DNA of 20,398 bases. It comes from a virus. The position numbers and the translations under genes are program-made. Positions 1 to 20,398 of the stretch are shown piece by piece; the first letter of the stretch is position 1, and each line of letters opens with the position of its first letter. Below the pieces are notes generated by a model. That model made no database searches, was not told the origin of the DNA, and was given only the letters and a program-made list of their open reading frames with translations. The stretch spans positions 1 through 20,398 of IMG/VR virus record IMGVR_UViG_3300029267_005572. One strand, 5' to 3'.

Positions 1-1343
1 GACCCGACGAGGCCCAAGGTGACTTCGGGCAGCCTGGCCACGGTGTATTCGAGCAGGCCCTCGTAGACGTGGCCGATCTGTTCCACATCAAGGGCGCGGT
101 AGGACAGAAGCTGCGCGCCGCCGCGCTGCTCCAGCAACTGGAGCGCCGTGAGGAGCAGGAGCACCGTGCGATTGTCGATAGGCAGCGGTACGGCCGGTTC
201 CTCACGCCAGGACGTGCCCTTGGCCCGCCCTTCGAGGAAGGGAAAGCGGTCGGGATCGAAAAGCGACCCCCCGAGGGCGGGCATGCGAAGGGCCTCGTGC
301 TCGACGCCGCCGTAGACCGCCCGGAAGACCGCCAGCATCCGCGACCACGCGTCGTGCCGACGCTCCAGGACCTCGGGGCCATGTTGGGATTCCTCCTCGC
401 GCAGCCAGGCGCGGAGGGTAGAGATGGCATAATGCTGGTCATAAACAGGATCGCCGAGTAGGAGGAGTCCACGCTCCTCGGCGCAGAGGATGAAGACCAG
501 CCGCATCATGACGGTCAGCCCTGCCTCGTAGAGCTCCGCCGGGCGGACATCCTTCAGCAGTTGGCCGTTGCGATCCTGGTCGGCACGCCCGAGCGCCTGG
601 AGCAGCACTTCTACCGCGCGGCGGACCTGCTCGCCGAGGGTATCGGTTACCTCCTCCTGGAATTCGATGGAGCGTTCCAGAAGCTGGTCGAGGGCATCCT
701 CAGGGGGGCCGAAGCAACGGCGCACGCCCAGCAGCGACACGAAGGCCTTCAGGGTTATGGGCTCCTGCTTCCAGAGGCGGGCGAACCATGACGTATAACC
801 GGACGTGCTGCCGATCGGGGCGTTGACCAGCATCCATTGTTCCCCATTGGTCACCAACCCGATACGCACCTCGGTTGCGCGGCAGAGCAGCGTCATGCGC
901 TCGGCGGGCGACGCGGGCCAGCGGTCGGCGGGCAACGCTTTCTCCAGGTCGGTCTCCGGCGGATGGATGGCGATGAGCAGGTGCGGCTTGCCGTCGTCCG
1001 CGTGTACGGCGAAGTCGGGAGCCATCTCCACGCCATGCTCGGGCGCTCGATAGACGACCTTCCCGTCGAGACGCTTGCGAGGAACGAGGACCTCGTCTTC
1101 GTATTCCAGGGCCTCCTGTATGACCATGCGCGTCCAGGCAACGTGCAGTGCGTCGAGTTCCGGATCGTCCTCGTCCACCGCGTCGCGCCATTCGTCATAG
1201 GCGGCGCGCAGCCGTTGGCGGCGAGGCGTTTCGATCTTGTCCAACCCCTGGGGAAAGACATCATTGAGGACCGATGCGGCGAGGAATGGGCCGGAGATAT
1301 CGACCAGCGAGAGCCATTGCACTTGTTCCAAGACACGAGCCAT
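1..1343 (-). CDS. drmMI: DISARM class 1 methylase DrmMI-like, N-terminal part (cut by window edge)
   Basis: Open frame from ATG at 1343 to the window edge, 447 residues visible and no stop. It starts 3 nt after the helicase stop, with a GGAGG motif inside the helicase end, so the two are co-translated. Recognised features are a segment around YEAGLTVMMRLVFILCAEE and a later LDVEQIGHVYEGLLEY segment, which I know from large Eco57I/COG1002-type DNA methylases annotated in DISARM class 1 loci. The family is usually well over 1,000 residues, and its SAM-binding and NPPY motifs lie in the C-terminal part, which is outside this window. Catalysis therefore cannot be judged here. The expected role is N6-adenine methylation that marks host DNA as self. 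It could instead be a type IIG/BREX-like methylase, but the neighbouring helicase favours DrmMI. Confidence 0.68.
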   Translation of the reverse strand, partial: MARVLEQVQWLSLVDISGPFLAASVLNDVFPQGLDKIETPRRQRLRAAYDEWRDAVDEDDPELDALHVAWTRMVIQEALEYEDEVLVPRKRLDGKVVYRAPEHGVEMAPDFAVHADDGKPHLLIAIHPPETDLEKALPADRWPASPAERMTLLCRATEVRIGLVTNGEQWMLVNAPIGSTSGYTSWFARLWKQEPITLKAFVSLLGVRRCFGPPEDALDQLLERSIEFQEEVTDTLGEQVRRAVEVLLQALGRADQDRNGQLLKDVRPAELYEAGLTVMMRLVFILCAEERGLLLLGDPVYDQHYAISTLRAWLREEESQHGPEVLERRHDAWSRMLAVFRAVYGGVEHEALRMPALGGSLFDPDRFPFLEGRAKGTSWREEPAVPLPIDNRTVLLLLTALQLLEQRGGAQLLSYRALDVEQIGHVYEGLLEYTVARLPEVTLGLVG

Positions 1344-1346
1344 GGA

Positions 1347-4300
1347 TCACTGGCCCTCCTGGAAGTCGTCAGGTACGAGGAACTGGACGGCCACCGGGAA
1401 CGTCCTCTCGACGGGGTCGGCGTACCGTTTCCGGAGGGCATTGATCTCTCTATTGCGTTCCTCGGGAATGCGCTCAAGCCGCAGACGCAAGGCTTCGATA
1501 TCGCGCCTGAGCTGTTCACGCTGATCCGCTGGCCACAGCTCGAGCTGGACGGCCTTGCCAGATTCCGCCAGTTCCTTGCGTATCATGACGGCCAGATCTT
1601 CAAGCACCTGCGCCAGATCCGATTCCTCGGCCTTGCGGCGACGGTCGAGGGTGTTGGTCAGGAACTGCAGACGTTCTCGTGAGCGCGCCTCGACTGCGTT
1701 GAGGATCGACGATTCCTGTTCCGCGAACCGTTTCTGGAGCGCGTTGAAAGTCTTCTCGGTCGGTTCCGCTGGCACGCTCGCGTTCAGCACTTCTTCCAAT
1801 CTTGCCAAGGTGCGAATGCGGGCGAAGCCTGCGACCTTCAGCTCGCCGCCAGCCATCGTCAATTCCTCGTGCAACCTGTGATGGCCGCCGCCCGTGATGA
1901 CGAGGCGCGACCATACGATCACGACCGGCTCCTCCGAGACCGCTCTCGGCATCGAGCGCACCGCCACGCGTTCGAGCTTCTTACGGTCCTCGTGCGCCCA
2001 CACTTCTGCCCGCAACAAGCGAAGCGACATCTGCACCAGAGGATGATGCAGATGGGCCAGGACCACATCGTCGCGACCCTGAGCCACGGCATGGTCGAAA
2101 GTGATAGGCCGACGCGTCCCCGTATGAGGGTGCTCCAGTCCGCGAGTCGCTTGGGCCCAGGAACCTGTGAGGAGAGGCACATCGAATGCCTGGGCATCCG
2201 ACACGCCGGAGAGACCGGTCGATTCGAGCGGCGGCTTCCCGGCGATGTTAAGGGCGACGGAGACCGCTCGGTGGACGTAATCCGGGGTCAGATGGAATCT
2301 GTCGCGGGCTTCCAGAAGCCGCTCGTGAAGACGAGCAACGCGCTCCTGCAGTCGGCGTTCGGCGGCGACAAAACGTCGGACCTTGGATGCCTTGGCTTCG
2401 GCATCACGCGTATCCATCTTGATCCGCCTGCCCAGCATGGCCTCTTCGATCTGCTGCGCGATGACGGGACCGACGCACCCGAGGTCTTGGCGGATGTTGT
2501 CCACCTTGCGGACGGCGCGCATGAGGAACTCATGGTCGCCATCGAGGTCGCCCGGCTTGGCATCCGGCGCGGCTGCCCCGACCTTCAGTCCTTTGCCCAC
2601 AGGGTGCCAGATGTAGACGGTCTTCGCCTTCTGGCCGTGGCGGTCGATGCGACCGTTGCGTTGCTCCATTACATTGGGGTTCCACGGTATCTCTATGTGG
2701 ATCAGGTAGTTGCAGTGGTTCTGCAGGTCGATCCCCTCGGAAGCCGCGTCGGTGGCGAGAAGGATGCGGACGGGCGAGACGTCCGGGTTGGCCTGGAAGG
2801 CCGCCTTGATCCTCTCGCGGTCGTCCCGGTCCATCCCGCCAAGAAGCGCCATCAGGCGCTTGCCGCCCCACCTCTTGGAAGCGAGTATCTCCAGCAGCCA
2901 GGAATGGGTGGCCCGATACTCGGTGAACAAGATGACCCGTTTGTCGTTCCATTCGCCGTCCGTTTTCAGGTGGGCCGCCAGCCAATCCAGAATGGCTTCC
3001 GCCTTGGAATCCGCCCGGTTCTTGGCGGTCTCCGCCCATGAGGCGAGGCGGTCGAGCATGGCACGCTGGACATCGGCCAACGGAGCCGAGAGCTCGCTCG
3101 CCGCTTCGATGGCCTCGGCCTGGGCCTCCTCGACTTGGGCGTCATCCGCGTAATCCTCCTCCGTGCGAAGGATCGCCTTGCGGAGGATTCGCTCCTTCAA
3201 CGCACGTCTCTCTCGCCTGGAGCCGACACGCGCGAGGGTCTGTCGATGCTTGGTCAGCGTGAGGGCGAATGCCATCGGCGACGAGAACAGGCGCTTCTTG
3301 AGGAGCTTGTGAATGAAATTGGTCCCGAATGCAGCGGATGTGCCCGCGACCGTTTCGGCGCGACTCTCGGTGTATTCCTTGAGGAGATGATGAATCTCAC
3401 GCTCTTCAGCCGTATAGCCGACCTCCAGGGCCAGCAGTTCTCGCTTCGGGTAGATCGGATCACCATTCTCGTCCACGATGTCGGCTTTCATGCGCCGAAC
3501 CATGATCCGATGCAACTGCTTCTCATCGGGCATGACTCCGCGCGCGAAACGCTGATCGTCGAGCAGCTCGAGCAGTGAAGTGAACGACTCCTGGTAGCCG
3601 TTGTGCGGCGTAGCGGTCAGGAAGAGCCGGTGCTCGAAGTGCGGGGCGAGCGTCCGGATCAGGCGCGTGCGTTGGCTCGGCATCGCGTAGCGGCTGGCGG
3701 CCGAGGGCGCCGCATTGTGAGCCTCGTCGACGACCAGGATGTCGAACTTGCGCGGGTAGGTGACATGCGGCGGTAGGGCATCCTTCATGAGGCGCAGACC
3801 CTCGCCGCTCTTCATCCAGTCTATGGAGGCGATCAGACGCGGAAAACTGGTCCACGGATTCCCATGGAGCCCGCGCTCCCGGCGCAGGCGCTTCAAGTAA
3901 TCGGTGTCGACGATGCGGAATTCGAGCCCGAACTTCTCGTGCATCTCGGTCTGCCATTTCACCTGCAGCGAAGCCGGACAGACGATGAACACCGAGCGGA
4001 CTCGGTGGCGCACCAGGAGTTCCTGTATCACCAGACCAGCCTCGATGGTCTTGCCGAGGCCCACGTCGTCGGCGATCAGGAGATTGGCGCGGGCCATATC
4101 TACAGCGCGGACGAGAGGATCAAGTTGGAAGTCCTCGATCTCGACGCCGCTTCGGAAAGGCGCTTGAAGCAGCGAGCGGTCGGCATTCGTGGCAGCTCCC
4201 CAGCGGATGGCGTCGAGAAAGGCCTCGAGGCGTTCGCAAGAGTCCCGCCCTCCGACGCTGGGAAGACCTGCCGTTTCGAGTATGCGAGCGCCAGGCTCAA

Positions 4301-4481
4301 GTTCCCACACCGCTGAGAGGGACTCATTCAGCGCATCCTCGTCCAGGGATGCGAGCGTGACGAGGTGCTGAGGCGTGAAGCCGTTTGCCCGGGCTAATCC
4401 GGAGGATCGGACGTCCGTGACCACCCATTGCCTCCGACGGACTTCGACGAGCTGGCCCAGTTCGGGAGGAGCGACGGTCAT
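1347..4481 (-). CDS. drmD: SNF2-family helicase, DISARM DrmD-like
   Basis: 1044 residues, a complete Swi2/Snf2-type DNA translocase. Visible motifs are Walker A DDVGLGKT (about 138-145), the DEAH box in VVDEAHN (about 250-256), motif III TATPHNG (about 289-295), motif V ATDAASEGIDLQ (about 576-587) and motif VI with QRNGRIDRHGQ (about 607-617). A charged helical segment lies between the two RecA lobes (about 400-500), and a long helical C-terminus contains ESDLAQVLEDLA. The length and order (helicase, then large methylase) match DrmD of class 1 DISARM. The ATG at 4481 overlaps the stop of the Vsr gene as ATGA, which fixes the start and implies coupled translation. It would act on invading DNA as an ATP-driven motor. 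A stand-alone RapA/HepA-like helicase is the alternative, made less likely by context. Confidence 0.8.
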   Translation of the reverse strand: MTVAPPELGQLVEVRRRQWVVTDVRSSGLARANGFTPQHLVTLASLDEDALNESLSAVWELEPGARILETAGLPSVGGRDSCERLEAFLDAIRWGAATNADRSLLQAPFRSGVEIEDFQLDPLVRAVDMARANLLIADDVGLGKTIEAGLVIQELLVRHRVRSVFIVCPASLQVKWQTEMHEKFGLEFRIVDTDYLKRLRRERGLHGNPWTSFPRLIASIDWMKSGEGLRLMKDALPPHVTYPRKFDILVVDEAHNAAPSAASRYAMPSQRTRLIRTLAPHFEHRLFLTATPHNGYQESFTSLLELLDDQRFARGVMPDEKQLHRIMVRRMKADIVDENGDPIYPKRELLALEVGYTAEEREIHHLLKEYTESRAETVAGTSAAFGTNFIHKLLKKRLFSSPMAFALTLTKHRQTLARVGSRRERRALKERILRKAILRTEEDYADDAQVEEAQAEAIEAASELSAPLADVQRAMLDRLASWAETAKNRADSKAEAILDWLAAHLKTDGEWNDKRVILFTEYRATHSWLLEILASKRWGGKRLMALLGGMDRDDRERIKAAFQANPDVSPVRILLATDAASEGIDLQNHCNYLIHIEIPWNPNVMEQRNGRIDRHGQKAKTVYIWHPVGKGLKVGAAAPDAKPGDLDGDHEFLMRAVRKVDNIRQDLGCVGPVIAQQIEEAMLGRRIKMDTRDAEAKASKVRRFVAAERRLQERVARLHERLLEARDRFHLTPDYVHRAVSVALNIAGKPPLESTGLSGVSDAQAFDVPLLTGSWAQATRGLEHPHTGTRRPITFDHAVAQGRDDVVLAHLHHPLVQMSLRLLRAEVWAHEDRKKLERVAVRSMPRAVSEEPVVIVWSRLVITGGGHHRLHEELTMAGGELKVAGFARIRTLARLEEVLNASVPAEPTEKTFNALQKRFAEQESSILNAVEARSRERLQFLTNTLDRRRKAEESDLAQVLEDLAVMIRKELAESGKAVQLELWPADQREQLRRDIEALRLRLERIPEERNREINALRKRYADPVERTFPVAVQFLVPDDFQEGQ

Positions 4482-4933
4482 CGGTGTATTCCTCCACCGC
4501 GACAGGCCTCGACGATACGAGCGATGATTCGTGGCGTGGGGGGCAGGCAGTCATGCTCCCAAACCCGGATTACTCGCCATCCGGCCTTCCGCAGGCGGGC
4601 GGACTGCCGTTTGTCGCGGTCCTTGTTCTCGGCGAGCTTGGGCAGCCAGTAGTCCTGGTTCGACTTGGGGTACGTCGCATGCTTCGGACACCCGTGCCAG
4701 AAGCATCCGTCGACCAACACAGCGACCTTCGGCCAAGGGAAGACGATGTCCACGGTGACTCCTTCGACGCGACGGTGGAGTCTGAACCGCAATCCTTCAG
4801 CATGCAGAGCCGACCGAAGCGCCCGTTCCGCTCCGGAGTCCTTGCTCTTCACCCGGCGCATGATCTCGGATCGTGTGAGCGGCTTCCGCATCGTCCTATC
4901 GGATTTCTTGCTCACCACAATGCTTCCGCTCAA
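4478..4933 (-). CDS. vsr: Very short patch repair (Vsr) endonuclease
   Basis: 151 residues, the usual Vsr length. Vsr nicks DNA 5' of T:G mismatches that arise when 5-methylcytosine deaminates, so it normally accompanies a C5 methylase. Visible family signatures are the RSEIMRRVKSKD segment near residue 21, the metal-binding aspartate in VDIVF (D62), the FWHGCP motif (78-83) with zinc-ligand His/Cys, NKDRD (103-107) and VWEHD (124-128). The start is a TTG at 4933 that overlaps the methylase TGA as TTGA, with AGGAGG just upstream. An in-frame GTG shortly after is a second option. It sits between the C5 methylase and the helicase, overlapping both by 4 nt, so it is made as part of the defence operon. 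Some relatives act as restriction nucleases instead of repair enzymes. Confidence 0.92.
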   Translation of the reverse strand: MSGSIVVSKKSDRTMRKPLTRSEIMRRVKSKDSGAERALRSALHAEGLRFRLHRRVEGVTVDIVFPWPKVAVLVDGCFWHGCPKHATYPKSNQDYWLPKLAENKDRDKRQSARLRKAGWRVIRVWEHDCLPPTPRIIARIVEACRGGGIHR

Positions 4934-6060
4934 GCGACCTCCTGCCGTTCGTTGACGCCAGCCAGAGTGCTCCGAGACGCCACATGTTCCATGATCGCGC
5001 GACCGAGTTCCTTCGCCAGCTTCGGCGGAACCGCATTGCCGATCATTCGCCCGACCGCCTTACGGTTAAGCCTCTCATTGGATGGCCAGAACTCGTAACT
5101 GCGTGGAAACGACTGGAATAGCGCCGCCTCGCGGAGCGTGATCGACCGGTCCTGTTCCGGATGGCCGAATCGCCCGTTGCCTATGCCCGTGCAGAGCGTC
5201 GTCATCGTAGGAGCGGGCCGATCCCACCACATCCGCCCGTAAATGGAGAAGTAGCTCTTCCCCGATTCCTTCCGATGGCAATCCAGAACCAGTTCGTCAG
5301 GCCAATCATGCCTCGTCCCACCGTCACGCGCCGTAGCGCGAATGCGTTTGAGATTCATCGGGGACAGCTGCGAGGCCGCATGCATGGGATCGGACGAATC
5401 CTCTTCCCCCGTTTCCAGCGGAGGCAGTTTCCCGATGGTCTTGCGGACCGTTCTCCACTGGCTCGGATAGCGATAGCGCCCCTCGGGGATCGTGATCTCC
5501 CCGAGCTGCGACGCGAGCAGCACCAGGCGCCTGCGGGATTGGGGAACACCGTATTCGGGACACTGGACGATCCGCCAATCGACGTGGTAGTTGAGCTTCT
5601 CAAGCGTGCGGACGAACCGACCAAATACCTCACGCCCACGGTCCACCAACTCGGGAACGTTCTCCATGGTTACCAGCTCGGGGACGATGCCGGTCACGAA
5701 CCGGCCGAAGTTGTCCAACAAGTCCCAGGCACCGTGCTTCTTCGCACCGTTGGTCAGCTTTGAGAAAGGCTGACAGGGAGCGCATCCGGCGAGCAGTCTG
5801 TACTTGTCCGGATCGAACAGCTTCTTGATGCTGGTGTAGTTCTTACGAGCCACGTCCCAGTGGAGGAATTTCACGTCCGGATTGTTCTTCTCATAGGCGT
5901 GCTTCATCTGTTCGTCGAGGTCGATTCCAGCCTCGACCTTGATGCCAGCCTGCAGAAGACCGTGCGTTAACCCTCCTGCGCCGCAGAAGATGTCCACGGC
6001 GCTGATGGGGCTATCCGCGGTGAGCTTCTGAAGACGTCTGTGAATAACTCGGCTTGCCAT
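4930..6060 (-). CDS. C5-cytosine DNA methyltransferase (Dcm-like)
   Basis: 376 residues with the ordered motifs of C5-cytosine methylases: motif I DIFCGAGG (23-30), motif IV PCQPFS with catalytic Cys96 (95-100), motif VI ENVPEL (133-138), motif VIII QSRRRLVLL (174-182) and motif X IGNAVPP (340-346). It transfers a methyl group from SAM to cytosine in a target that cannot be read from sequence. The target recognition region lies about 190-280. All catalytic motifs look intact. The ATG at 6060 follows the HTH gene by 9 nt, with TAAGG upstream. The 3' end overlaps vsr. In the operon it would produce the 5-methylcytosine whose deamination Vsr repairs, and may mark self DNA alongside the adenine methylase. 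Hand counts of sampled lines suggest lower G+C than the phage genes. Confidence 0.93.
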   Translation of the reverse strand: MASRVIHRRLQKLTADSPISAVDIFCGAGGLTHGLLQAGIKVEAGIDLDEQMKHAYEKNNPDVKFLHWDVARKNYTSIKKLFDPDKYRLLAGCAPCQPFSKLTNGAKKHGAWDLLDNFGRFVTGIVPELVTMENVPELVDRGREVFGRFVRTLEKLNYHVDWRIVQCPEYGVPQSRRRLVLLASQLGEITIPEGRYRYPSQWRTVRKTIGKLPPLETGEEDSSDPMHAASQLSPMNLKRIRATARDGGTRHDWPDELVLDCHRKESGKSYFSIYGRMWWDRPAPTMTTLCTGIGNGRFGHPEQDRSITLREAALFQSFPRSYEFWPSNERLNRKAVGRMIGNAVPPKLAKELGRAIMEHVASRSTLAGVNERQEVA

Positions 6061-6069
6061 GCTACAGCC

Positions 6070-6312
6070 TTACCGCTTTTGCTCTGCGTTGCCATCGACT
6101 GGTAGACTGCTATCACCGTTCTGAGCGCCGCCTGGATCGGCCGCGCCACCTCTCACCCACTCGTCGACCTCTGAGAGCTTGAAGCGCAGAAGGCGACCAG
6201 CGCGGTGAGCAGGAAAGCCCTTCCTGTCGATCCACCGATAGACTGACTCCTTCCGGACACCGATGTGCTTTGCCACCTCTGCTGCGTCGACCCAGCGTTC
6301 TTCGCTGCTCAT
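6070..6312 (-). CDS. Small excisionase/MerR-type helix-turn-helix protein
   Basis: 80 residues. The N-terminal half carries a winged HTH of the excisionase/HTH_17 type: DAAEVAKHIGV then SVYRWIDRKGFP forms the helix-turn-helix (about 9-33), and GRLLRFKLSEVDEWV (about 38-52) is the typical wing and last helix. The tail from about residue 56 is polar and probably disordered. It is the first gene behind the defence promoter and lies 9 nt ahead of the methylase, so a role as operon regulator is likely. Such proteins can also be recombination directionality factors, but no integrase is in view. ATG at 6312 has an AAGGA motif 9 nt upstream. Repeats around the promoter (see separate entry) are possible binding sites. 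Confidence 0.85.
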   Translation of the reverse strand: MSSEERWVDAAEVAKHIGVRKESVYRWIDRKGFPAHRAGRLLRFKLSEVDEWVRGGAADPGGAQNGDSSLPVDGNAEQKR

Positions 6313-6497: not shown

Positions 6498-9173
6498 TCA
6501 CACGGTCTCAACGACCAAGACAGGAGTCGCGGGAACAGATGAGTCCGCTGTGGCTGCGTGCTCGTCAGTGTTCTGGGTCTTGATGCCCGAGGGCCAGAGG
6601 GCGGTGGCGATGCGGATGGTGAAACGGTAGGTCTGGCCGTCGGTAAGAGGGCCGGATTGCCACGTGTAGCGGGCGGGAGCCGTGGGGCGATCCATCAGCA
6701 CCGTATCGAGGGGCAGGCCATAGTCTACCGCGCCAGTGCCGGCGTCCCAGTAGATGCGGGCTTCGTACGCGGCGCCTGGGCCGTTCTCCTCGTAGCGGGG
6801 GTCGTAGAGCCATTCGAGATTGATCTTGCCGTTCTCGATGGCGCGCGCCTCGACCCAGCGCGGCTCGGCAGGCCGGGCGGCGGGGGCGCCGTCCTGGAAC
6901 GGGATGGCAACGATCTGGCGGATGTTGCCCTCCTCGTTCCCAGCCCCGTCCACGGCGCGCACCAGGAAAATCCAGACGCCGTCCTCGTCCGTGAAGACCT
7001 GCTCGTAGCTGGTCTCGGCCGAGTCCTGGACTGGCTCGGAAGCGAGATCCAGGCTGTCGGCGCCGGCGGAGCTCCGGACGCGGTAGCTGGCCACGTCCAG
7101 GCTGGGCGAGGCCTGCCAGGAGATGGTGAGGGTGCCGGTCTCCGGGTCGAACTGCCACGCAATGCTGCTCGGCGGCTCCGGAGCGCTGGCGACCGTCTCC
7201 GACTGCTCGGTCGAGATCCCCTCGTCGCCTTCCTCATCGACAGCCCGGACCTGGTAGGTGTAGGTCTCGTCCCGGAGCGGCCCGTCATCGTAGGACAGCC
7301 CGAGCAGCTCGGCGATCAGCTCGTATTCGCCGCCGCCCGGCTTGCGGTGTAGCCGGTAGATGCGCGCCGTCGGCGACTCGGTCCAGCTGCAGCGCACGAC
7401 GTCCATGGGCGTCCACAGCCAGCCGAGGAGCTCGTCCTCCTCCATGCCGACATCGGCCAGGACCTGGAGGATCTGCCTGACCGTCTGCGATTCCGGCAGC
7501 CGCACGGCAAGACCAGTCGTATGGTATGCAATCGCGCCGTCAATCACGACCGTGTACTCCGCCCCGGCCCCGGCGCCGCCCTGCGGCCAGACCAGCTCGC
7601 GCTGCCCGCTCTCCGGGACGCGCAGCGAGACCGCCATGCAGTGGAGCGCGGCGCCGCCGGTCGCCGCCATCAGGACCGTTCCCACGTCCTCCTTGTAGAC
7701 GAGCCCGTCGGTCCCTCCGGCCGGCACATGGACGATAACGCCGAGGCGCTCAATGCCCTTGAGCAGGTCCGTCCCGCCGGCCAGGACGGCGGCGACCGCG
7801 CCCGGCCCTTCCACACCGACCAGGTACAGGTCTGATGCGCCGATGACGACGGCAACCGCAGCGCCACCGTCTTCCGTGCCTATCAGAAGCTCGTCCATGC
7901 CGCCGGTAACGACTAAGACCACTGCGCCGACGTCTTCCGCGCCGACCAGGTGCACGTCGGTCCCGCCGACGGCGGCGGCGACCGCCTCTCCCTCGTCCTC
8001 GATGCCGACGAGATGCCTGTCCGTCGCGCCGACGGCGACCAGGACCGCCGCCCCCTCGCCCTCGGAACCGACCAGGTGCAGGTCCGTCCCGCCGCTCTGC
8101 ACGGCGACGGCCGCGCCCGCCTCTTCCGTGCCGACCAGGTGCCTGTCCGTAACGCCGGCCTCGACGTGGACCTCTGCCCCCGCGTCCTCGTGGACGGGCT
8201 CGTGCGGGTCCAGGTCTTCTACGTCGAAGCTTATCCAGTTCCAGACGCCGATGTGGTAGGAGCAGACCCCGAACACGTACCTGTAGCTCCTGCCGGCCGG
8301 GACGGGGACGGAGAGGACGTCGAGCAACTCCGTCCGGTCCGCGTCGCTGTAGAAGCGGGACTCGAACGCCGTGTCTCCGGTCCGCTCGTTGGTCAGGTAC
8401 CACGTCGTGTTCGCGCCCGTCCCCGTGGCGTACTCGTCGGCGCTGTCGTTCTCGTACTCCTCCAACGGGAACAGGTATTCATCCAGGTTATGGTCGTACT
8501 TGATCTGGACGCCGATCGCCTGGTTGTTGTTCAGGTCCCATCCCCGGCAGTCGTCCACGACGTTGGAGACCGCCCAGCAGCAGCCCTGCGCGGGCGCGCC
8601 CTGGTTCCCCTGGGACGTAACCTTGAGGGTGTGCGCGAACGCCGGGCCGAAGTGCCCCGCGCCCCTGTCGGCGTAGACGTAGGAGTCCCCGCACTTCCAG
8701 AGCTTGAACATCTGGAGCTTGTGCGGATAGACCGTTATGCTGTTGTTGGGGTCGACCTCGACGTAGCCGGTGAAGTCCTCCAGCGGATCGGGCGGGGCGG
8801 CAAGCATCCCGGCGGCGTCCAGGTCGACGCGGAGGGCATCCCATAGGAGAGCGGACCGGTCGGCGTGCGCCGCCCCTTCGGCCCTGCCTTCCCCCTTCAA
8901 CCGCCCCCGCAGCGGGTCCACGCGCTCTTCCTCGGTTGGCTCCCAGGCGGGGGTGCGGACCTGCGGGCGCGTCTCGAGGATGTCGCGCACGACCCGGTGG
9001 ACCTGCTCCAGGCAGAGCGCGCGGTGATGGCGGGCTTCGGGGGAACGGTCGCCGGCCCGTTCGTTGTGCTTCAGGCGGAGGGCCTCGAGGACGGCGTAGG
9101 CGTACCGGTAGCGTGCCTCGGGCGCCGTGACGCCCGGCGGGTAAGCGAGGGCCTGCTCCGCGCCTGCGGCCAT
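6498..9173 (-). CDS. Phage tail-fibre-like protein with 21-residue repeats and fibronectin-III-like domains
   Basis: 891 residues, last gene of the virion block. The N-terminal 125 residues are helical and charged. Residues about 135-325 form a compact region rich in W, Y and C (Cys198-Cys199 pair, CSYHIGVWNW near 304-313). Residues 329-513 hold nine repeats of 20-21 residues with the pattern ED.GA.V.V..GGTD.HLVG. Residues about 590-660, 665-760 and 768-870 look like fibronectin type III modules, for example TYTYQVRAVDEEGDEG and the similar SYEQVF...FLVRAVDGAGNEEG. ATG at 9173 has GGAGG 7 nt upstream. The placement after the tail-tip genes and the modular, repetitive build suggest a fibre or adhesin that contacts the host surface. 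No direct homologue is recognised, so receptor binding is inferred. Confidence 0.82.
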   Translation of the reverse strand: MAAGAEQALAYPPGVTAPEARYRYAYAVLEALRLKHNERAGDRSPEARHHRALCLEQVHRVVRDILETRPQVRTPAWEPTEEERVDPLRGRLKGEGRAEGAAHADRSALLWDALRVDLDAAGMLAAPPDPLEDFTGYVEVDPNNSITVYPHKLQMFKLWKCGDSYVYADRGAGHFGPAFAHTLKVTSQGNQGAPAQGCCWAVSNVVDDCRGWDLNNNQAIGVQIKYDHNLDEYLFPLEEYENDSADEYATGTGANTTWYLTNERTGDTAFESRFYSDADRTELLDVLSVPVPAGRSYRYVFGVCSYHIGVWNWISFDVEDLDPHEPVHEDAGAEVHVEAGVTDRHLVGTEEAGAAVAVQSGGTDLHLVGSEGEGAAVLVAVGATDRHLVGIEDEGEAVAAAVGGTDVHLVGAEDVGAVVLVVTGGMDELLIGTEDGGAAVAVVIGASDLYLVGVEGPGAVAAVLAGGTDLLKGIERLGVIVHVPAGGTDGLVYKEDVGTVLMAATGGAALHCMAVSLRVPESGQRELVWPQGGAGAGAEYTVVIDGAIAYHTTGLAVRLPESQTVRQILQVLADVGMEEDELLGWLWTPMDVVRCSWTESPTARIYRLHRKPGGGEYELIAELLGLSYDDGPLRDETYTYQVRAVDEEGDEGISTEQSETVASAPEPPSSIAWQFDPETGTLTISWQASPSLDVASYRVRSSAGADSLDLASEPVQDSAETSYEQVFTDEDGVWIFLVRAVDGAGNEEGNIRQIVAIPFQDGAPAARPAEPRWVEARAIENGKINLEWLYDPRYEENGPGAAYEARIYWDAGTGAVDYGLPLDTVLMDRPTAPARYTWQSGPLTDGQTYRFTIRIATALWPSGIKTQNTDEHAATADSSVPATPVLVVETV
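7635..8189 (-). repeat. Nine tandem 63-bp coding repeats (21-residue units) in the fibre gene
   Basis: Residues 329-513 of the fibre protein consist of consecutive units of 20-21 residues. Conserved positions are an acidic pair at the start, a glycine at unit position 4, alternating valines, GGTD or a variant, and HLVG at the end. The two or three last units are degenerate (for example LLKGI and GLVYK endings). At DNA level the units are diverged, so this is an old coding repeat. The alternation of hydrophobic residues and glycines fits a beta-structured shaft. Confidence 0.85.
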
Positions 9174-18609: not shown

Positions 18610-18951
18610 TCACTGGCTCATGCGGACCCGGACGGTCGCATCGTCATCGCCGGCGGCCGCGACCGTCTTGCCGATCAGCTTGTTGGCGCCGGTCTCGTCG
18701 TCCTCCTTGGCCACGCCGTCGGCCACGTCCCAGTAGACCTCGGCGCCGGCGTCGATGGCCTCGCCTTCCCCGGTCGCCTTCGGGAAATCGAAAACCCCCG
18801 TCACGGCCAGGGCGCCGAGCGCGTCGGCGGCGATGTCGAGCTTGGCCACGCCGACCAGCTCGCCCTGGACCACCACGTCGCCGGCCGAGACGTCGCTGGA
18901 CGGCGTGTAGTCAATCGCGTCTCCCGTCTGCACGTATCTTGCAGTCGCCAT
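18610..18951 (-). CDS. Capsid decoration protein, DUF2190-type
   Basis: 113 residues. There are two ATGs two codons apart, and the second at 18951 is chosen because AGGAG lies 8 nt upstream, whereas the first (18957) would nearly touch it. The sequence begins MATARYVQTGDAIDYTP, then DVVVQGELVGVAKLDIAADALGALAVTGVFDFPKA, then AIDAGAEVYWD, then KLIGKTVAAAGDDDATVRVRM. This is the classic DUF2190 layout: a small beta-rich protein that binds the capsid surface and stabilises it. It normally follows the capsid gene closely, but here about 300 bp of unexplained sequence lie between. Confidence 0.9.
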   Translation of the reverse strand: MATARYVQTGDAIDYTPSSDVSAGDVVVQGELVGVAKLDIAADALGALAVTGVFDFPKATGEGEAIDAGAEVYWDVADGVAKEDDETGANKLIGKTVAAAGDDDATVRVRMSQ

Positions 18952-18957
18952 GTTCAT
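18949..18957 (-). repeat. Left 9-bp direct repeat flanking the intergenic segment
   Basis: ATGAACATG on the minus strand, containing both possible starts of the decoration gene. It matches the 9-mer at 19257-19265 at 8 of 9 positions, same orientation, 308 bp apart. Confidence 0.5.
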
Positions 18958-19256
18958 CTCTCCTGTCTATGGCTGCTTGCGGTTTGGACATTGGAGTCGT
19001 AGAATGGAAAGCACTTGCGCGCCGTTACCTTGGCACGCATCTTCAGAAAGGGGGTGCCTCTTGAAGCACCTTTTGAAGATGCCGGGAAACACCTCATTGC
19101 GAGGATAACCACAGTCTCCCCGGCCAAGGCCCGACGGGCAGGCGTCGAAAGAGACAGCAACCCATTCGGGTGATGTGGGCGCGCGGCAAGGCATGGCAAG
19201 GTGTGGGGGCCATCCAGTCCTGCCACTGGGCGGCCCATTTCTATCATCTGCGCACT
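18958..19256 (-). other. 299-bp hairpin-rich intergenic segment between capsid and decoration genes (candidate RNA or small inserted element)
   Basis: No convincing gene is present. One open frame of 103 codons runs through it from ATG 19265, but only about 62% of its third positions are G or C by hand count. That is close to the segment's own G+C (about 59%) and far from the strong G/C third-position bias of neighbouring genes, and no protein family fits. On the minus strand five stems can be drawn. H1 is 19207-19236: GGGCC...GGCCC enclosing CCAGT...ACTGG with a 6-nt loop. H2 is 19160-19171: ACCC...GGGT. H3 is 19129-19139: GCCC...GGGC. H4 is 19081-19124: GCCGGGGA with TTCCCGGC, enclosing CCTC...GAGG at 19092-19104. 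H5 is 19037-19082. GGCAAGG is repeated at 19185-19191 and 19195-19201 (plus strand). Direct repeats flank it. Confidence 0.5.
19037..19082 (-). other. 19-bp bulged hairpin (H5) within the intergenic segment
   Basis: On the minus strand GCATCTTCA (19074-19082) pairs with TGAAGATGC (19037-19045), then AAA with TTT, then GGTGCTT with AGGCACC (one G-U) around a CAAG loop at 19060-19063. The only interruptions are a single bulged C and a CCC bulge on the 3' side. No run of U follows, so it is not a simple terminator. Confidence 0.6.
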
Positions 19257-19265
19257 CACGTTCAT
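19257..19265 (-). repeat. Right 9-bp direct repeat flanking the intergenic segment
   Basis: ATGAACGTG on the minus strand, directly after the TAA of the capsid gene. It differs from the 9-mer at 18949-18957 by one base. It could be a target-site duplication or a duplicated start region. Confidence 0.5.
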
Positions 19266-20398
19266 TTACGCCTCGCCCTTGAACTTGACCATGCCCCGGT
19301 AGTCCTGCTCGCGGACGCCGAGGTCGAAATACACCCGGAACTTGACGCCGAGCGTGTCGAAGTCCGTCTCGCCGCGCTCCACCGTCGGCGTGCGGCGTCC
19401 CTTCAGGTAGCCGATCTCGAACGTGTCCACGATCTGCGGGTCGGCGAACAGGTACCACGCCACGCTTGACGCGCCAGAGTAGTTCGTGTTCGAGAGGTAG
19501 GGGCTGACCACCAGCGTCAGGTCCTCGTCGGCGATGGCGTTGTAGGTCGGGATGCGCTCCTTGTCGGTCGCCCCCACCGCGATGAGCAGCGTGGCGTTGA
19601 GCAGCTCCCGCGCCGTCATCTTGAGGGCCGTCGGCACCAGCAGGTACTTCGGACTGACGTTGATCGGCTGGCCGTCGGCGTCCGTCTGGTCCATGAACAT
19701 CTGGACCGCCTCGCCGAGGCTGTCGGCCGACAGCACCGTGTCCGCGCCCGCCTTATAGTTCCCGTGCCCCGTCGAGAAGAGGCTGTCGGGATTGCTAAGC
19801 AGCCGCGTGAAGAAGAGCTGATCGATCTTCCGCGCGGCCCGCGCGCCCATGCCCTCGGGGACCTTCAGGAACGCGCCGAGGTCGTCGTTGTAGATCATCT
19901 GCCTGGTGAGCGAGAAGATCTTCCCGAACGTGCCGAGCTGGTTCGTGGCCTTCTCCTCGGTCAGGCCCCCGTGCTTGATCTCACCGTCCGGCGCCACCGG
20001 TTCGAGATCGCCCACGTCGGTCAGGCGATAGCGCTCCGACTCCTTGAAGTCGTTCAGCTCGCCTTCGCTGCACAGCTTCGTGGCGACCACGGGCTGCGCC
20101 TGGAAGCTCTTGAGCAGCTTTTTGTTGGCGACGTTGTTCAGGATGCCCGGCAGCGACACCGTCGAGAACGCAGCCCGGATGGTGTCGTTGCAGAACGCGC
20201 GCGGCGTCGGCACGCCCTCCATCCTCGCGCACTCCACGAAGAGCTGCTGGATGGAGATGTCCCGGTCGTGCCAGGCGGTCTCGACCACCTGCTCCCCGTA
20301 GGCCTTCACGAGCTGCTCGTCCGGGATGCCCGCCCTGAGGCAGAGCGCCGCCTCGAGAGCCTTCGTGTCGAAGTCGCGCCCCCGGTCGTGATTGACCG
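19266..20398 (-). CDS. Phage major capsid protein (N-terminus outside window)
   Basis: Open without a stop from the window edge to TAA at 19266-19268, 376 codons visible. The start is not in view. A GTG at 20309 is unlikely to be it, because the reading frame upstream is also good protein (FDTKALEAALCLRAGIPDE). This segment, leading into LVKAYGEQVVETAWHDRDISIQQL, is familiar from capsid proteins made as a fusion with a prohead protease, in the Mu gpT-like group. The capsid part continues with TKLCSEGELNDFKESERYRL, EEKATNQLGTFGKIFSLTRQMIYNDDLGAF and ends YLKGRRTPTVERGETDFDTLGVKFRVYFDLGVREQDYRG, a typical capsid ending. If the fusion is correct, the protease domain lies to the right of position 20398. 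Confidence 0.88.
   Translation of the reverse strand, partial: VNHDRGRDFDTKALEAALCLRAGIPDEQLVKAYGEQVVETAWHDRDISIQQLFVECARMEGVPTPRAFCNDTIRAAFSTVSLPGILNNVANKKLLKSFQAQPVVATKLCSEGELNDFKESERYRLTDVGDLEPVAPDGEIKHGGLTEEKATNQLGTFGKIFSLTRQMIYNDDLGAFLKVPEGMGARAARKIDQLFFTRLLSNPDSLFSTGHGNYKAGADTVLSADSLGEAVQMFMDQTDADGQPINVSPKYLLVPTALKMTARELLNATLLIAVGATDKERIPTYNAIADEDLTLVVSPYLSNTNYSGASSVAWYLFADPQIVDTFEIGYLKGRRTPTVERGETDFDTLGVKFRVYFDLGVREQDYRGMVKFKGEA

Follow-up and report, generated by a model that had tools for sequence, protein, structure and literature searches.

The question raised by this locus is what occupies the stretch between the capsid and decoration genes of a phage, and whether it is an inserted mobile element, a structured RNA or an ordinary spacer. 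In the window (the whole stretch of viral DNA analysed here, 20,398 nt), the gene order on the minus strand is protease-capsid fusion, spacer, decoration (cement) protein and tail genes. The 3' part of the protease-capsid fusion gene lies at 19266-20396 on the minus strand (PF25209 Phage_capsid_4, 3e-51; PHROG 4523) with its TAA stop at 19266-19268, and the reading frame of this fusion is complete in locus L048, where it has 685 amino acids. The decoration protein gene (18610-18951, minus strand; PF09956, 2e-25; PHROG 122) starts at the second ATG, at 18951 and not at 18957, according to the alignment with relatives (MATARYVQ..), and therefore the whole spacer covers 18952-19265 of the minus strand, i.e., 314 nt. 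Since relatives of the window's capsid protein were found in 46 of 392 Planctomycetota genomes, the host of the phage is probably a planctomycete or a neighbour.

The original prediction described a hairpin-rich, gene-free segment between these two genes, and such a segment is indeed present and noncoding. When six frames were scored, coding signal was absent from the spacer: the codon score was -0.30 bits per codon (+0.05 to +0.71 in the window genes), and the G+C at the three codon positions was 0.57, 0.56 and 0.62, compared with a GC3 of 0.74-0.95 in the genes. A protein gene in the 103-codon frame, which if conserved in relatives was to have refuted the original prediction, is rejected, because there is no coding signal and this frame has no Pfam or PHROG match. 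The G+C of the spacer (approx. 0.58-0.61) is below that of its surroundings (0.63-0.71), as first noticed, and the 19-bp stem proposed on the transcribed strand is included in the fold of the spacer RNA (-118.1 kcal/mol, z = -2.1, with 3 of 100 shuffles being equally good), where the best 120-nt tile (19138-19019) ranks third among 338 for folding on the minus strand.

The segment had also been described as flanked by 9-bp direct repeats, and both copies exist on the minus strand, the first (ATGAACGTG) at 19257-19265 and the second (ATGAACATG) at 18949-18957, where it overlaps the decoration start codon; both lie outside the RNA element. The two copies are mismatched at one base, and when both flanks were shuffled 500 times, 102 of the shuffles contained an equally good pair, so the repeat is at chance level. 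A small transposon or MITE with a 9-bp target-site duplication, one of the two explanations offered originally, is not supported for this reason.

The other explanation, a structured RNA, gained support from homologs with compensatory changes. Pattern, covariance-model and BLAST searches returned 12 diverged homologs, so that the family has 13 members with the window included; seven of the homologs are at the capsid-decoration junction of other phages and five are elsewhere. Searching the decoration-selected loci with the element by blastn gave L104, L129, L111/L112 and L146/L147, all of them at that junction although their capsids, where measured, share only about 40% identity with that of the window, and the core pattern, with which (and not with the covariance model) the viral contigs of IMG/VR were scanned, added L183, L184 and L197, each directly after the capsid stop. 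Eight members, including the window, have their place precisely between the two genes and are all in sense orientation; the covariance model R1 was built from these eight. The five remaining members are found between a terminase-like gene and a portal gene (L291, R1 E 7e-11), just after integrase and HTH_17 (excisionase-like) genes and beside a tRNA (L307, R1 1e-7), just before a tape-measure-like gene that has no Pfam match (L344, R1 1.6e-9), in a planctomycete chromosome, antisense to its neighbours (L288, R1 2.5e-7), and next to an IS6 transposase gene of a Methylocystis plasmid (L352, blastn 7e-6; model R2 1.2e-4). Each carrier record searched has one copy, and R1 found no further copy among the other relatives scanned.

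With the window element, blastn gave nothing in annotated phages and only chance matches of 25-27 nt in annotated plasmids, and no match in the 392 planctomycete genomes (a search run without a positive control), where the covariance model finds one, that of L288. No match to the core pattern was seen in 289 genomes from the phylum of the Verrucomicrobiae MAG G519, nor to R2 in 75 genomes from the class of G010, the latter again without a positive control. One candidate in which only a single hairpin matched (L335) was dropped, and L336-L343 and L345, which matched a search pattern and not the model, were rejected. Because carriers of the element include phages with planctomycete-type capsids, a planctomycete chromosome and an alphaproteobacterial plasmid, uncultured viruses may carry it widely, and the defined core together with the covariance model makes the family searchable at scale.

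The conserved structured core of the RNA is at 19037-19240 (all core coordinates refer to the minus strand) and scores 146.2 bits with R1, where the window sequence is one of the eight used to build the model and the independent evidence is that of the homologs and pair counts. In 5' to 3' order, the core contains hairpin H1 (19207-19236; 19226-19236 paired with 19207-19217), which has compensatory changes at most pairs, and then the conserved motif CCGCGnnCCCAC (19175-19186), the CCAC of which belongs to the 5' strand of helix P2. This helix (19109-19178) pairs CCACA at 19174-19178 with UGUGG at 19109-19113 and encloses the H2 region; it is invariant in the eight junction members, and diverged members have G-C or U-A in place of one of its A-U pairs. 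Inside it are helix P2a (19114-19155; 19151-19155 with 19114-19118) and hairpin H2b (19132-19147; 19143-19147 with 19132-19136), with the loop CCYGYY in most members. Hairpin H3 (19092-19104) is CCUC/GAGG in the window and CCCC/GGGG in most members, with GUGGUUAU on its 5' side and UGUUU on its 3' side, and hairpin H4 (19037-19083) has a stem of up to 19 bp in the window, longer than in relatives. An anti-Shine-Dalgarno-like stretch at 19047-19056 reads CACCCCCUUU in the window and (C)ACCUCCUU in most members. The stretches conserved across members are CCGCGnnCCCAC, GUGGUUAUCC, UGUUU after H3, UCAAnA and ACCUCCU, and the order within the core is CCGCGnnCCCAC, then GUGGUUAUCC-hairpin-UGUUU, then UCAAnA; the length of the element is approx. 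190-225 nt across the family.

The case for this fold rests on covariation. The eight junction members were aligned with MAFFT, with no fitting to structure. Over 45 consensus pairs in this alignment, 89.9% of cells were paired, and 19 of the 45 pairs had changed on both sides, a count reached in none of 500 shuffles. Sliding the partners by 1-3 columns lowered the pairing to 34-47%, with this control being somewhat biased toward the consensus pairs, which were derived by eye from L104; RNAalifold, run on its own, yields nearly the same pairs. With four diverged members added, in an alignment fitted to the model, two-sided changes are seen at 37 of the 45 pairs. The compensatory changes, which the original prediction had proposed to look for, hence exceed both the column-shuffled and the slid controls. 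For most members folded singly, P2 is missing from the minimum-energy structure, imposing the consensus is unfavourable by 3-21 kcal/mol, and the window RNA deviates from the consensus pairs in H4 and at its 3' end. It could be argued that the spacer is simply a variable one, or what is left of a gene, with hairpins formed by chance, as this spacer is highly variable across the phage family and sometimes contains genes, and as the window fold taken alone only modestly beats its shuffles. However, the covariation in the homologs, the conservation of the core in unrelated contexts and the absence of coding signal in every frame make this explanation extremely improbable, and we consider it very likely, from the alignments, that the core represents a conserved structured RNA family.

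The statement that no described RNA matches held as well. The whole window had no match to Rfam 15 at gathering score, and at permissive E-values there was no credible match over the element in the window, L104, L129, L111, L146, L288, L291, L344 or L307; a lncRNA match at 0.016 on the window is far below the gathering score and belongs to a model without base pairs. A known catalogued RNA is rejected on the absence of any matching Rfam 15 family. A self-splicing intron (group I or II) is likewise rejected, with no Rfam match and the element lying between two complete genes. Titles and abstracts, in a literature search of partial coverage, held no description of such an RNA. HEARO (RF02033), the guide RNA of IsrB-type elements, is similar in being a structured RNA of approx. 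200 nt that occurs sporadically on mobile DNA, but the element has no match to its model: HEARO was found in none of the 12 carrier records at E<=1 (the control was weakly positive in one genome). A TnpB-like gene (PF07282) was not found above the cut-off in the 12 carrier records, several of which are fragments, with positive controls, while the search for PF14239 (RRXRR), which had no match in carrier records, is uninformative because its controls were silent too. No RNA-guided nuclease gene was found in these carrier records, and a linkage of the element to HEARO or TnpB is not supported by these searches. GOLLD, ROOL and OLE-like RNAs are large structured RNAs without a protein signature, some of them carried by phages; they are much larger than the element, which has no Rfam match to any of them. 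Structures of large phage-associated RNAs of unknown function are described in PMC12286853. We rate the element as a new family within this known kind, the phage-carried structured RNAs of unknown function. Lacking a protein signature, the noncoding RNAs of phages are difficult to detect, and here is one with strong covariation support.

Among 207 unique capsid-decoration junctions, gathered by capsid and decoration searches, the median length is 57 nt (interquartile range 33-86) and 18 are of at least 200 nt. The closest relative found (L003) has a spacer of 38 nt, a capsid 88% identical and homology on both sides of the spacer; in this comparison for an empty site, which had been proposed at the outset, a near-identical phage without the element was not found among the relatives. 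Because the junctions of the nearest relatives are short, the window segment is, by comparison of sequences, an addition relative to them. Long junction spacers in L090, L119, L235/L236 and L274 hold NUMOD4-HNH homing endonuclease genes (called by Pfam on L235 and L090, and by resemblance for L119 and L274), which, in other phages of the window's phage family, occupy the junction where the element lies in the window and differ from it in being protein-coding. The junctions of L180 and L113 resemble the NUMOD4-HNH ones. At the junctions of L212, L217 and L229, the late operon contains an acetyltransferase-like (GNAT-like) gene, judged by sequence resemblance, that is encoded on the opposite strand, and unidentified genes are in the spacers of L209 and L123. 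The capsid-decoration junction is a cargo site, and as it takes homing endonucleases and other cargo, phages that carry the element can be compared naturally with those that lack it. Simple hairpins are also common at the junction (19 of 48 capsid-decoration spacers with z below -2). In L005, L006, L221, L225, L279 and L281 the spacer hairpins are long imperfect inverted repeats of low complexity.

The idea that something had been inserted here is therefore right in part, as close relatives have short spacers and the element moves independently of its flanks, while target duplication does not go beyond chance. Between L104 and L184 the element is 88% identical in nucleotides and the capsids 50% in amino acids, and between L199 and L197 the values are 88% and 57%, whereas L198 and L184 have capsids 86% and elements 81% alike; the capsid identity values of L192 are meaningless, its capsid frame being broken in its contig. 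Because element identity is uncoupled from flank identity, the element has a history separate from that of the capsid gene, having been transferred either through homologous recombination across the conserved ends of genes or by some other means. In L199 (the same as L146), a second stretch resembling the capsid 3' end (GTCAAGAGCAAGGGCGAGGTG) lies downstream of the element and looks like the remnant of an earlier capsid end after recombination. We slightly favour the reading that the element is a horizontally exchanged accessory RNA gene, found mostly in phage late operons and rarely in chromosomes or plasmids.

The main rival to the accessory RNA gene is a selfish, non-autonomous mobile element that would use its hairpins to move, with a recombinase, a homing nuclease or an RNA-guided nuclease helping in trans and the junction being a favoured landing site. 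Its sporadic presence, the variety of its genomic contexts, its inheritance independent of the flanks, homing endonuclease genes at the same junction in other phages, the IS6 transposase gene adjoining the L352 member and the second capsid-end-like stretch 3' of the element in L146 would all fit. Against this, there is no target duplication above chance in the window, the carriers showed neither HEARO RNA nor a TnpB-like gene above the cut-off, each carrier record searched has a single copy, the covariation throughout the fold speaks for selection on the RNA, and the transfers can be explained by homologous recombination over conserved gene ends; hence we consider this reading fairly unlikely. 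A still less probable explanation is an intercistronic RNA that acts in cis on the proportion or the stability of the capsid and decoration messages, be it as a processing site, as an attenuator or through control of the ribosome site, for which the eight sense-oriented members exactly between the two genes and the simple hairpins in the same spacer of many relatives can be cited. Most relatives, however, lack the element, which is not always 5' of the same gene, as five members are in other contexts, with L288 antisense to its neighbours. The predicted accessibility of the decoration ribosome-binding region is 0.49 with the element and 0.52 without it (with the start used being a few bases off in three of the eight carriers), so control of this region in cis was rejected. 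The other contexts and the unchanged accessibility speak against a cis role at the decoration gene and weaken the processing and decoration-dosage roles suggested originally.

Returning to the accessory RNA gene, its identity as a structured RNA is well supported and its mechanism is not. The element would here be transcribed together with the virion (late) genes and would work as RNA, probably in trans after processing; we regard an accessory RNA acting in trans as an even proposition, and the location of 8 of the 13 members at one site, which also fits a local (cis) role, counts against it. It is known that the sequence ACCUCCUU resembles the 3' end of 16S rRNA, and that bacterial small RNAs with C/U-rich anti-Shine-Dalgarno motifs exist. 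The element is similar to these by resemblance only, in that its ACCUCCUU could pair with ribosome-binding sites, and differs from them in fold, size and location. ACCUCCU (ACCUCCUU) is present in 10 of 13 members; the window has ACCCCCU, and the perfect ACCUCCUU is missing from the window, L291 and L307. Because this anti-Shine-Dalgarno-like stretch is conserved in those 10 members, an action on translation in trans is suggested. To hypothesize, the C/U-rich stretch may form base pairs with the Shine-Dalgarno sequences of mRNAs from the host or the phage and thereby influence their translation, a route that we favour among specific mechanisms but that is weakly supported and, in our view, unlikely. 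A broader proposal, a new phage RNA class with a trans function of its own, for example as an anti-Shine-Dalgarno decoy or repressor redirecting late translation or by scaffolding or guiding a protein of the host or the phage, and passed between phages of distant hosts like a protein-coding moron gene, is possible and somewhat doubtful.

Several other genes in these phages deserve mention. After the RNA element, L197 has two decoration-like proteins in tandem (3934-4729, plus strand). Adjoining the virion genes of the window, positions 3-6312 on the minus strand encode DrmMI (truncated at the end of the window, with the N-terminal part present), DrmD, a Vsr-like nuclease, a C5 cytosine methyltransferase and a small HTH protein that matches the PADLOC mad1 model, and from its gene content this defence-like cluster looks like a phage-carried class 1 DISARM-type system. 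In the tail region, an 891-aa protein (6498-9173, minus strand) has an extended array of short, degenerate repeats (VVxVVGGTDxHLVGxEDxGAAV-like).
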